Source: an uncultured Monoglobus sp.
Lineage (GTDB): Bacteria; Bacillota; Clostridia; Monoglobales; Monoglobaceae
Reading direction: 5' to 3'
Length of the DNA stretch: 64,000 nucleotides
NCBI GenBank assembly: GCA_947585115.1
Contig: CANPWW010000001.1
Coordinates: 18,544 to 82,543 of the forward strand
Position numbers and translations under genes: made by a program. Under the pieces are notes generated by a model. It was not told the origin of the DNA. It did not search any database and saw only the letters and a program-made list of their open reading frames with translations. Below, one piece after another: positions 51,765-56,221 of the stretch (the stretch's first letter is position 1; every line of letters starts with the position of its first letter).

Positions 51765-52433
51765 ATGAAGTATAACTATAAATTCAACAACAGAGATCTG
51801 TACCGTCTGGCGACCACGCATATTTCATTCGCCAACGACAAGCACATCGAGAGCAATCAGAGGCTGGAGTTTTTGGGCGACAGCGTGCTGTCGTTTGTGG
51901 TCGCCGATTATATCTACAAAAAATACCGCGGCGTCGCGGAGGGTGAGCTGACCGAGATCAGAGCCAACGCTGTATGCGAGAAAACGCTGGCGATCGCGGC
52001 GGGTAAACTTGAGCTTGGCGAGGACCTTCGGTTCGGACGCTCTGAGCAGATGTCGGGCGGCAAGCGCAAGGACTCGGTGCTTGCCGATACATACGAGGCT
52101 GTGCTTGCGGCGATATACTTAGACGGCGGCATAGAGCCCGCCCGCGAATTTGTTATGAGCACGATCGGCGATATGATAGGCGACACCTCGTATGTGGAGC
52201 TTGAGAACTACAAGTCCGAGATACAGAGCTACTACCAGAAGCGCGACAGGAACCGCGAGGTGGTGACGTATCGCCTGATCAGCAAGTCGGGCCCCGACCA
52301 CAACCCGTATTTCGAGGTCGAGGCGGTGTACCGCGGAAAGGTCATCGGCAAGGGTGGCGGCAAGACACGCAAGAGCGCGGAACAGGAGGCGGCGAAATAT
52401 GCCCTCGAGCAGACCCGTGAGAAAAAAGTATAA
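51765..52433 (+). CDS. rnc: Ribonuclease III
   Basis: Double-stranded RNA endonuclease. The RNase III signature is RLEFLGDSVLSFV (about residues 33-45), a second metal site is in DTYEAVLAAIYLDGG, and a dsRNA-binding domain lies at about 145-218, ending GGGKTRKSAEQEAAKYAL. Length 222 is normal. AAAGGAG precedes the ATG, 13 bp after the fab terminator. In many Bacillota smc follows; here a radical SAM gene overlaps its end instead. Confidence 0.97.
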   Translation: MKYNYKFNNRDLYRLATTHISFANDKHIESNQRLEFLGDSVLSFVVADYIYKKYRGVAEGELTEIRANAVCEKTLAIAAGKLELGEDLRFGRSEQMSGGKRKDSVLADTYEAVLAAIYLDGGIEPAREFVMSTIGDMIGDTSYVELENYKSEIQSYYQKRDRNREVVTYRLISKSGPDHNPYFEVEAVYRGKVIGKGGGKTRKSAEQEAAKYALEQTREKKV

Positions 52434-53924: not shown

Positions 53925-53966
53925 GACCTAGAGACTAGGCCGGGCGGATGATATCCGCCCCTACGG
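53906..53966. repeat. Repeat edge plus palindromic core at the end of the nuclease-like gene
   Basis: AACGTAGAGACTAGGAAATA and a second TAGAGACTAGG resemble the AACGTAGTGATTAG edge seen at 9790 and 63888. The core GGGCGGATGATATCCGCC with CCTACGG follows at 53942. Confidence 0.75.
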
Positions 53967-54013
53967 TTGGCGAGGATATATCGTATCGCCGCAAATGCGT
54001 GAATTTCGCCAAA

Positions 54014-54046
54014 CCTCGTAGGGGACGGCGCCCTCGACGTCCCGGC
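54014..54046 (-). repeat. Left copy of a 29-bp inverted repeat pair
   Basis: CGTAGGGGACGGCGCCCTCG then ACGTCCCGG. The reverse complement occurs at 56257-56285, on the far side of the BspA-like gene. Confidence 0.85.
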
Positions 54047-54049
54047 TTC

Positions 54050-54165
54050 CCCTTGAGGATAATCAGCAAGCTTGCTTGCGGGTTCAAAGCTATCTTTCAA
54101 AATTGCTTGCAATTTTGACCAAGAGCTTCCTTAATGCTGTCACCGAAGGTGACGGATGAGGTGTT
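54050..54165. repeat. Second hairpin repeat type
   Basis: CCCCTTGAGGATAATCAGC, hairpin CAAAATTGC-TT-GCAATTTTG (54098-54117) and GTCACC-GAA-GGTGAC (54139-54153) followed by GGATGAGGTGTT. I recognise the CACCGAAGGTGACGGATGAG plan as a widespread non-coding repeat of Clostridia. Only one copy is in the window. From 54166 to 54356 I see nothing else apart from AT-rich sequence. Confidence 0.55.
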
Positions 54166-54356
54166 AACGCAGCAAATAACAAATACGCGGAAATTTAACG
54201 TGTTCCATAAAAAAATAAAGTTTTAATTTTGGCGGCGGCATGGTTTCGGCTGTGCTGTTGTTTATTTTTTTGAATAATTACGGCGGTTAAGCCGTGAAAC
54301 GGACAAAATATTTGCCAACAAGCATAGACATGCTTACGAATTTTTATGTTTTTTAA

Positions 54357-54385
54357 TTGACCTTTTGGAAATAATATGATAGAAT
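54357..54385 (+). promoter_or_regulatory. Promoter of the structured leader and BspA-like gene
   Basis: TTGACC (54357-54362), 17 bp, TAGAAT (54380-54385). Predicted start is near 54391, exactly where the long hairpin begins. Confidence 0.75.
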
Positions 54386-54390
54386 AAATT

Positions 54391-54503
54391 TGCCACGTAA
54401 ATTTAATATTTTACTCTTTATATTAAGGGTGCATTTTTCATTGTGTAAAAATGTACGCTCTATTTTCGCATCCTTGTTAAAGAGTGAAATAATTTGCGTG
54501 GCA
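54391..54503 (+). ncRNA. Highly structured leader RNA or small RNA (long hairpin)
   Basis: The 5' arm 54391-54420 pairs with 54478-54503: 24 Watson-Crick pairs and two G-U pairs, with one 4-nt bulge (54404-54407). An inner stem AAGGGTGC (54425-54432) with GCATCCTT (54468-54475) and a small CATTTTT/AAAAATG hairpin continue the structure. All three non-Watson-Crick pairs are G-U on the plus strand, which fits selection on this RNA strand. No reading frame of note lies inside. An intrinsic terminator follows at 54527. It may be a riboswitch-like leader or an independent small RNA; a decayed miniature transposon with long inverted ends is the alternative. Confidence 0.6.
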
Positions 54504-54526
54504 GCAATCGGAGCTAAACATTTTTC

Positions 54527-54564
54527 GTGTGTGGTTCCGTTTGTGACCACACACTTTTTATTTT
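54527..54564 (+). terminator. Terminator directly upstream of the BspA-like ribosome site
   Basis: GTGTGTGGT and ACCACACAC form a perfect 9-bp stem with a 10-nt loop, followed by TTTTTATTTT. AGGAGG (54566-54571) comes 2 nt later. This is the layout of a transcription-attenuation platform. Confidence 0.8.
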
Positions 54565-54580
54565 CAGGAGGTACATTTTT

Positions 54581-56221
54581 ATGAAAAGAGTTTTATGTTT
54601 AAGTTTGGTATTAACAATGATTTGCGCGCTGCTGACGTTTATGCCCGTGACCGCCGCAACAATAGTAGACAGCGGCAATTGCGGAGCGCAGGGCGATAAT
54701 GTAAAATGGACGCTTGACAGCGAAGGTACCCTGACGATCAGCGGCACGGGTGAAACTAAGGATTATTTTGGTGATTCACCCTTTTTTAGTTCTCAAAACA
54801 TAAGAAAAGTTATTATTAAAGACGGAATCACACGTATTGGAACATGGATTTTTCGTGACTGCTCCGAATTGGAAAATATTATCTTACCAGACAGCATTAT
54901 AAGTATTGGCGAATACGCATTTTGCAATTGCGCCAAACTTTCAAGCATAAATATACCTAATAACGTTACACAAATAGGTTATAATATTCTTTATGGCACG
55001 GGATATTATAATGATTCTCACAACTGGATCAATGGGATACTTTATGCAAAAAACTATTTGTTAAATGCGGATAAAGAACTGATTACAGATGAATGTATAG
55101 TTAGAAATGGTACAAAATGTATTGCGGATCTAGCATTTTATGGTTGTAATAATTTAAAAAGTATTACTATCCCAAACGGTATTAAAAATATAGGTCCGAG
55201 TACGTTTTCTGATTGTATAAGTTTATTAAATGTAAATTTACCTGATAGTATAATTACTATTGGCAATACAGCATTTAGTGAATGTAGTAATTTAGAAAAG
55301 ATAAATATACCAAATGGTGTGGTATTAATTGGTATAGGTGCATTTATGGATTGTGTCAGCTTAAAAACTATAACTATACCAAATGGTGTAACAAATATTA
55401 ACGATGATTTATTTAACAATTGTATAAACTTGGAATATATTTCCCTGCCAAAAAGTATTACCAACATTGGCGATAGAGCTTTTGAAGGATGTGAACGCTT
55501 ATTAAATATAGATATACCTGCAAACGTAACAAATATAGGCGAACAAGCATTTTGTAGGTGCATTACGTTAACCTACATAAATATACCTAATAGTGTTACC
55601 AATATCGGTGATTACGTTTTTTCAGGATGCTCCGGTTTAAAAAGCATAAAGTTACCGGACGGCATTACATATATTGGGGATAGTGTATTTGTTGATTGTG
55701 TCGGTTTAAATAGTATAAGCATACCAAATAGTATAATAGAAATTGGAAATAGCGCATTTGACTATTGTGATAATCTTAAAGATATATATTACAGCGGCAC
55801 AAAGCAAGAGTGGAAAAATATAAATATTGGCAAATGGAACGATCCACTTTTCAACGCTACTATTCATTACAATTCGACAATGCCGAGTGAGGCAACGCCT
55901 ACGCCTATTCCTACGCAAAAACCGACTCCAATACCTACGGTTAAGCCGACCGCAGATCCGAATGCGCCTTCGGTTGAGATCACCGAGATATCGGATTATA
56001 TTGTTACCGCAAAGGTCAATAATTGCGATGATACCGACGCGCAGGTTATCTTGGCGGTGTACAACAAAAACGGTGCGCTGATCGAAATGCAGAATTATTA
56101 TAACTTTGGCGATGTAACATTTTTCAGCGCAAACTTGCAAAACGCGAACATAAAAGTGATGCTGTGGAGCGGTACGGACAGTATAAAGCCGCTGGCCGAA
56201 ACCGCGGAAATGAGTTTGTAA
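54581..56221 (+). CDS. BspA-like leucine-rich-repeat surface protein
   Basis: Secreted protein of 546 residues. The ATG at 54581 has AGGAGG 9 nt before it and opens a signal peptide (1-26, MKRVLCLSLVLTMICALL). After a short beta domain (DSGNCGAQGDNVKWTLDSEG, about 29-65) come about 13-14 LRR_5/BspA repeats of 23 residues (about 70-425), with the pattern LxxIxIPNxVTxIGxxAFxxC. A TPTPIPTQKPTPIP spacer (about 430-455) and a final beta domain (about 460-546) end it; there is no SLH domain, LPXTG or other anchor. BspA repeats often mediate adhesion. The gene is AT-rich compared with its neighbours and flanked by inverted repeats, both signs of transfer. Confidence 0.92.
   Translation: MKRVLCLSLVLTMICALLTFMPVTAATIVDSGNCGAQGDNVKWTLDSEGTLTISGTGETKDYFGDSPFFSSQNIRKVIIKDGITRIGTWIFRDCSELENIILPDSIISIGEYAFCNCAKLSSINIPNNVTQIGYNILYGTGYYNDSHNWINGILYAKNYLLNADKELITDECIVRNGTKCIADLAFYGCNNLKSITIPNGIKNIGPSTFSDCISLLNVNLPDSIITIGNTAFSECSNLEKINIPNGVVLIGIGAFMDCVSLKTITIPNGVTNINDDLFNNCINLEYISLPKSITNIGDRAFEGCERLLNIDIPANVTNIGEQAFCRCITLTYINIPNSVTNIGDYVFSGCSGLKSIKLPDGITYIGDSVFVDCVGLNSISIPNSIIEIGNSAFDYCDNLKDIYYSGTKQEWKNINIGKWNDPLFNATIHYNSTMPSEATPTPIPTQKPTPIPTVKPTADPNAPSVEITEISDYIVTAKVNNCDDTDAQVILAVYNKNGALIEMQNYYNFGDVTFFSANLQNANIKVMLWSGTDSIKPLAETAEMSL

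Follow-up and report, generated by a model that had tools for sequence, protein, structure and literature searches.

The long hairpin and terminator in front of a BspA-type gene in the window (the whole stretch of 64,000 nucleotides of uncultured Monoglobus sp. DNA analysed here) are one copy of a conserved RNA family, more than one odd hairpin, and the element's predicted transcript is probably a cis-acting transcription-attenuation switch in which a single strand, c, is exchanged between two partners, both supported by covariation. The element takes up window positions 54391-54563 (173 letters). By anatomy alone it would be assigned to the terminator/antiterminator attenuators, and no Rfam 15 family matches it.

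The window copy and its promoter

An earlier sequence-only reading of this DNA described a promoter-like site, a 113-nt hairpin, a terminator and a Shine-Dalgarno (SD) sequence, and all four were found in place, with small corrections. The predicted sigma-70 promoter (54357..54385, plus strand) consists of a -35 hexamer TTGACC (54357-54362), a 17-nt spacer and a -10 hexamer TAGAAT (54380-54385) with TG before it. The scan of the window puts the transcription start near 54391-54393, at the base of stem P1, in agreement with the claim that the start coincides with the first base of the hairpin, which begins at 54391. A lone site of this kind means little, since the scan returned 6 such sites against 4.6 ± 2.0 in shuffled sequence; the site gains weight from its conserved position across copies and not from the scan score alone. 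Among 133 non-redundant copies, the best-scoring -10 starts 11 or 12 nt upstream of the element in 109 and TGn precedes the -10 in 105, leader copies and copies facing a convergent gene being alike in this, and the class means for hexamer matches lie at 9.6-9.9 of 12, compared with 7.3 in random stretches.

The hairpin (54391-54503, 113 nt) has an outer stem of 12 + 14 pairs with a 4-nt bulge, plus inner stems. The minimum free energy of 54385-54580 is -67.0 kcal/mol against -34.8 ± 3.7 for shuffled sequence (z -8.7), and the plus-strand fold is stronger than that of the minus strand (-67.0 versus -48.2). The hairpin fold holds five G-U pairs, two of them in P3 and one each in P1, in P2 and at the apex; the earlier count of three, a number that varies with the stems meant, was not reproduced. 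The stem of the terminator occupies 54527-54554, with 10 pairs by the scan, and runs into a T tail at 54555-54564, and the AGGAGG that belongs to the downstream gene (54566-54571, plus strand) begins 1 nt past this tail, a gap first given as 2 nt. A predicted intrinsic terminator therefore lies between promoter and gene, and the attenuator-like leader layout, terminator and then SD, is confirmed. The inferred controlled gene (54581..56221, plus strand, ATG at 54581) encodes a BspA-type leucine-rich-repeat protein of 546 aa, and its BspA-like character, already recognised, is borne out by an LRR_5 match with an E value of 7.5e-88. The RNase III-like ORF said to lie about 2 kb away ends at 52433, upstream of the element, and is named by eye. 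Just 5' of the element lie interspersed repeats (window 53941-54142): at E <= 1e-3, a query with 53925-54200 gave 57 matches in the genome, counting the window itself, and a large number of them span query positions 125-217 at 87-99% identity.

Distribution of the family

A BLAST search with 54385-54580 found six clear places in the genome itself, including the window, and further ones in the genus. From 41 diverse copies (alignment A1) and from 96 copies (alignment A2) the covariance models R1 and R2 were built, respectively. With R1, the genome holds 21 copies at E <= 1e-3 and a relative (G001) holds 33 places; matches occur in 35 of 38 genomes of the host's family and, at E <= 1e-4 and under stricter filters, in 98 of 391 genomes sampled from the class, where 21 families were counted among the matches listed. 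The homology search in related Clostridia that had been proposed thus yielded a family with many copies. When R2 was run against 398 sampled genomes of the phylum, the genome itself was the sole match, and 14 genomes of the same class among those listed were without one. R1 found no copy in two genomes of the same genus, G007 (74% complete) and G008 (99% complete, one contig), and the element is not essential in these two since it is absent there.

An exact pattern recovered 89 stretches in GTDB contigs. Among the 80 listed, all are titled MAG or uncultured; they are mostly from Clostridia, Oscillospiraceae, Ruminococcaceae and Monoglobus, and many come from animal guts. That the hosts are known mostly from metagenome assemblies suggests a reason why so large an RNA family is still missing from Rfam.

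The earlier view of the element as a candidate regulatory RNA of no known class stands, as the Rfam 15 scan of the window gave no match at gathering scores. At the same scores, 20 loci with other copies returned two tRNA genes and nothing at the elements. When 11 loci were scanned at E <= 1, rnk_pseudo and IsrM overlapped an element, but these are different families and fell below their cut-offs. The weak matches in the window at E 1-10 (SBWMV1, mir-238, SQ2397, SCARNA7) are taken as chance, because they lie far below the cut-offs and did not recur at the 11 other loci at E <= 1. One locus (L077:1162-1306) has a cobalamin riboswitch match at 31.9 bits, against a cut-off of 31.5, 5' of its two tandem elements; it appears only under permissive filters. 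No description of the element was found in the passages of PMC8040213, PMC11109978 and PMC2965389 that were searched, and it may be identical to a still unnamed candidate of the large RNA screens.

Competing helices and the proposed switch

Three stems make up the rod of the hairpin. P1 (5' strand 54391..54402, plus strand, pairing with 54492-54503) and P3 (5' strand 54424..54432, plus strand, pairing with 54468-54476) are defined by fold and covariation, and P2 (54407..54420, plus strand, with 54478-54491) is a variable 14-bp stem taken from the fold. P1 is paired in 97.3% of cells in A1, with changes on both sides in 8 of 12 pairs, and in 98.6% in A2, with double changes in 11 of 12 pairs, A2 having been fitted to a model that contains P1; P3 is paired in 79.3% of cells in A1, with double changes in 7 of 8 pairs. 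The comparison of copies shows an apical strand, b, enclosed by P1 and P3; it belongs to a chain of helices formed by strands a to e: a:b is the apical helix, b:c a pseudoknot, c:d an antiterminator and d:e the terminator. Strand a (GTGCATTTTT, 54429..54438, plus strand) pairs with b in apical helix P4, its first letters overlapping P3. Strand b (AAAAATGTACGCTC, 54447..54460, plus strand; consensus A5 then UG-A-GCUC) has a or c as its partner, and c (GCAATCGGAGCTAAACATTTTT, 54504..54525, plus strand) is the switching strand, which pairs with b or with d. Strand d (54527..54544, plus strand) is the 3' side of the antiterminator, and its first 9 nt are also the 5' arm of the terminator; the 3' arm is e (54546-54554), which together with the T tail spans 54546..54564 on the plus strand. 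The terminator stem is paired in 98.7% of cells in A1.

The overlap of b:c and c:d on c averages 71% of the letters that the smaller helix uses there, and in 185 of 188 elements each of the two is worth -9 kcal/mol or better, so that they exclude each other. Neither a:b and c:d nor b:c and d:e share any strand, so that the RNA would have two complete states. Terminator and antiterminator are closely balanced: they are worth -15.2 and -13.6 kcal/mol (the latter with the RNA cut before e), and they lie within 4 kcal/mol of each other in 136 of 189 elements. The nested minimum-energy fold of the window copy, from which the pseudoknot is left out, holds c:d and not the terminator (-64.3 versus -63.3 with the terminator forced).

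Covariation supports the two competing helices. The alignment model of A2 leaves b:c and c:d unpaired, and neither helix guided the alignment. In A2, 96.5% of the 1315 cells of b:c are paired; 9 of its 14 pairs change on both sides, and its double-change cells number 70 against 24 after shuffling (0/500). For c:d the paired share is 89.8% of 1066 cells, with double changes in 8 of 12 pairs and 48 double-change cells against 24 (0/500). Sliding the partners by 1-3 columns lowers b:c to 35-63% and c:d to 22-52%. For neither helix did any of 500 shuffles match the paired percentage or the covariation score, and 87 of 500 matched the number of double-change pairs of c:d. In A1, P1, P3, the terminator and b:c together are paired in 92.4% of 1688 cells, against 31-58% with partners slid by 1-3 columns. 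The comparison backs an exclusive antiterminator, with c:d weak in this closer set, where 148 of 500 shuffles matched its double-change pairs and 9 of 500 its score. At position 6 of b three strands change together: C stands there in 18 of the 96 copies of A2, always opposite a G in c (18 of 18), and a carries G in 14 of the 15 copies that have a letter at this place. Some copies, L326 among them, preserve the helices although their letters differ widely; in L329 no fitting b:c is present. The check for compensatory changes that had been suggested along with the hairpin came out strongly in relatives. The first reading could not see the copies elsewhere, nor that the hairpin tip and the terminator face competition from b:c and c:d.

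The most telling test stays within one genome, where on average a copy fits itself better than it fits the other copies. For the 21 copies of the genome, self energies against those with other copies were -10.2 and -7.2 kcal/mol for a:b (a taken with 8 nt more), -14.4 and -10.1 for b:c, and -18.6 and -12.3 for c:d, with 0 of 5000 permutations reaching the observed value in each case; the short a:b, without the 8 nt, is not clearly self-specific (260/5000). The advantage holds on average, the own partner ranking first for 8 of 21 copies in b:c and for 7 of 21 in c:d. It recurs when copies are sorted by what follows them: all three helices are self-specific at 0/2000 in the leader (66) and convergent (35) classes, and the permutation counts out of 2000 for a:b, b:c and c:d were 5, 0 and 0 in the far+ class (21) and 1, 42 and 28 in the near+ class (12). 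Because the average fit of b:c and c:d is better within a copy than between copies of the genome, the covariation is in cis; by the same comparison of b and c letters, pairing in trans between copies is not needed, though it may still occur.

We propose that polymerase would start at the base of P1 and that P4 (a:b) would form first. In the OFF state c would take b, freeing d, so that the terminator could form and an RNA of about 170 nt would be released; in the ON state c would take the emerging d, and polymerase would read on into the SD and the gene. The choice would be set by a signal that stabilises or blocks b:c; candidates are metabolites, proteins, other RNAs and pausing of the polymerase. 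Since b sits at the tip of the rod, which is about 35 bp long, b:c would need a bend, for which the bulge separating P1 from P2 is a possible place.

The nature of the input bears on a special case of the switch, a strict metabolite riboswitch in which a ligand pocket in P1-P3 stabilises b:c. Its layout and strand exchange are those of terminator-type riboswitches, there are tandem copies, and certain kinds of downstream genes recur. Metabolite aptamers, however, usually have a conserved unpaired core, and we found none: by our assignment of the columns, each of the 30 positions with at least 93% conservation belongs to a helix or an exchange strand (P1, a, b, c, the terminator) or to the T tail. 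For the invariant A5:U5 a U-A-U triple was considered, but the need of A5 to pair with two different runs of U explains the invariance more simply. The downstream genes, moreover, encode surface proteins, small regulators and small unknown proteins, and not one pathway. The apparent lack of such a core makes a classical metabolite aptamer less likely, with a protein, an RNA or pausing left as candidate inputs, and we regard the strict riboswitch as possible but doubtful. With ZTP- and preQ1-type riboswitches the element shares a leader RNA with exclusive antiterminator and terminator, an SD right after, and a pseudoknot opposed to the antiterminator; it differs from them in having no Rfam match and no conserved unpaired core that we could find, in its three linked strand exchanges, in its roughly 20 copies in this genome and in its many copies without an ORF. 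Like trp-type attenuators, it has consecutive strands with alternative neighbours and the terminator last, but no leader-peptide frame was identified and b:c is a pseudoknot across P1. T-box leaders are likewise clostridial leaders with antiterminators; the Rfam scans gave no T-box match, however, and the downstream genes are not related to amino acids.

Leader copies, gene-less copies and rival explanations

By a crude caller with a minimum of 60 aa, which misses short ORFs, the next gene of 142 non-redundant copies is co-directional and 5-45 nt away in 66, convergent in 35 and co-directional but farther in 33, the contig ending first in 8. When short ORFs are allowed, an SD and an ORF of at least 20 codons directly follow the terminator in 79 of 140 copies and are missing in 61. 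The assumption that every copy without a called gene is gene-less was rejected in part, as 7 of the 35 convergent copies have an SD and an ORF of at least 20 codons. The copies that lack both comprise gene-less ones and tandem ones that run into the promoter of the next copy. Where a co-directional gene follows, the start codon lies 14-17 nt past the element in 34 of 99 copies. The earlier alternative between a signal-sensing leader and a stand-alone RNA is therefore not a matter of one or the other, and both arrangements occur.

Of the 61 proteins downstream of leaders, 60 were scanned: 25 matched LRR_5 (BspA type), 5 Cu_amine_oxidN1, 3 SLH and 2 MazE/MraZ, in a set of which about half comes from the genus of the window and near relatives, which favours BspA. 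In the genome itself we read 15 of the 21 copies as leaders; six stand ahead of AbrB-like proteins of 79-89 aa, and the rest are mostly BspA-like or secreted by eye. One AbrB-like protein (L030, own-genome copy on contig 8) passes TIGR01439, a similar one from another genome (L047) falls just below, and the others are AbrB-like by eye. Several of the six AbrB-like proteins (L313, L319, L323, L324, L327, L328) have CxxC pairs resembling a zinc ribbon by eye.

The gene-less copies speak against a switch that serves leaders only, since plain leader control does not require alternative pairings in copies without an SD and ORF, and convergent-class copies keep the same alternative pairings. Many of these copies carry instead a further strand, f, a sequence after the terminator that is complementary to the 3' strand of P1 and to c. 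Its pairing reaches -17 kcal/mol or better in 26 of the 61 copies without SD and ORF versus 6 of the 79 with them. With tandem copies removed, because there the next unit can supply the complement, 21 of 50 still reach -17 kcal/mol or better and the fit is self-specific (0/2000), as it is in the convergent class and among all copies without SD and ORF (0/2000 each); no self-specific trend was seen in the leader (922/2000), near+ (531) or far+ (656) classes. In several read-through folds f encloses the terminator hairpin, and our guess is that f would capture c in the read-through RNA of many copies without a direct ORF, which keep the same alternative helices. A control structure that occurs both with and without an ORF is also a feature of stand-alone decoy RNAs such as Rli55/EutX.

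These same copies also argue for a stand-alone small RNA family, whose released product of about 170 nt would act in trans, the leader copies being secondary. A promoter-like site is found in 109 of 133 copies; 12 of 22 listed pairs of same-strand neighbours lie only 43-63 nt apart, with a new promoter in the gap where it was read; 61 of 140 copies have no SD and ORF, and many gene-less ones have f; and an RNA chaperone could make use of the A5 and U5 runs, which are conserved. Yet more than half of the copies have an SD and ORF directly behind them, the starts are concentrated at 14-17 nt, and the average self-fit of b:c and c:d puts the covariation in cis. We therefore judge a purely trans-acting RNA rather unlikely, and continue to prefer the attenuation switch.

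The first reading had named copies at many unrelated loci with target-site duplications as the mark of a miniature transposon. The first half of this is seen, many copies being dispersed or in tandem and some being 96-99% identical across loci or genomes, and the second is not clearly so. The longest shared flank word averages 6.29 in convergent copies (5.95 in shuffles, sd 0.18), 6.33 in far+ copies (6.20, sd 0.25) and 6.44 in leader copies (6.23, sd 0.14), so that convergent and leader copies stand about 1.5-2 sd above shuffles; flanking direct repeats show no clear excess, and no clear target-site duplication emerged in these three classes. The copies also diverge with compensatory changes, and start codons keep a preferred distance from them. 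The window copy had no match in the plasmid collection, and two exact patterns had none in viral contigs. The only match in the phage collection is one copy (L371, 126 bits) in MT835845.1, a record labelled Bacteriophage sp.; judged by eye, its ORFs resemble ClpB/C, YicC and a metallo-hydrolase, so that the record seems to be chromosomal and wrongly labelled. A miniature transposon is thus unlikely, and we give very little credence to any mobile element or selfish repeat carrying its own promoter and terminator.

About as unlikely is a homologous-recombination module, in which a block of promoter, RNA, SD and signal peptide shuffles surface genes and the fold is incidental. Two comparisons speak for shuffling. 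L035 and L036 share 96.5% identity over 839 nt upstream and 98% in the element, but no alignment was obtained between their genes. Between L035 and L052, identity is 96% upstream and 94% in the gene, and only 77 nt of their elements align, at 90%. From these alignments, leader, locus and gene seem to recombine as modules, a pattern consistent with gene conversion between paralogous leaders and one that may promote the exchange of surface genes. An incidental fold, however, would leave the compensatory changes and the self-specific b:c and c:d unexplained. A second 6S RNA, suggested by a similar length and a long-hairpin plan, is rejected with near certainty, as the element has no RF00013 match and a canonical 6S gene stands elsewhere in the genome (82.2 bits, cut-off 46.4), RF00013 being matched in 34 of the 40 genomes searched.

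If the attenuation switch is correct, it would constitute an undescribed layer of control, repeated about twenty times in this genome and spread over part of the Clostridia, often in front of surface or small regulatory proteins, and one input could then change what is exposed on the surface of many gut bacteria. A wider reading, which we offer tentatively and would not yet bet on, is that the switches are class-wide, with about 20 per genome, that one signal sets the repertoire of surface and AbrB-like proteins by termination, and that the gene-less form with strand f is an RNA-only device that reports or buffers the same signal. The 191 distinct variants are a natural test set for three coupled strand exchanges, with the compensatory changes already made by evolution.

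Several small ORFs recur behind the element. Cys-rich proteins of about 60-83 aa (TGI.L.PGN.GKDC..CCC.EC) are encoded directly 3' of it at L164, L169, L170, L173, L176, L187, L190, L358 and L360; two of them, L164 and L173, were scanned against Pfam and NCBIfam and had no match. Another small family of about 49-61 codons (YK.LYH..FN) stands behind the element in other genomes (L205, L209, L210, L216). At L075, L079 and L081 the SD after the terminator is followed by a start codon and a near-immediate stop, and the next called start lies 73-80 nt past the element. At L317, the element is 96-98% identical to those of L358 and L360 and the gene that follows these two, Cys-rich by eye, is missing, so that this copy looks like a relic from which the gene was lost.
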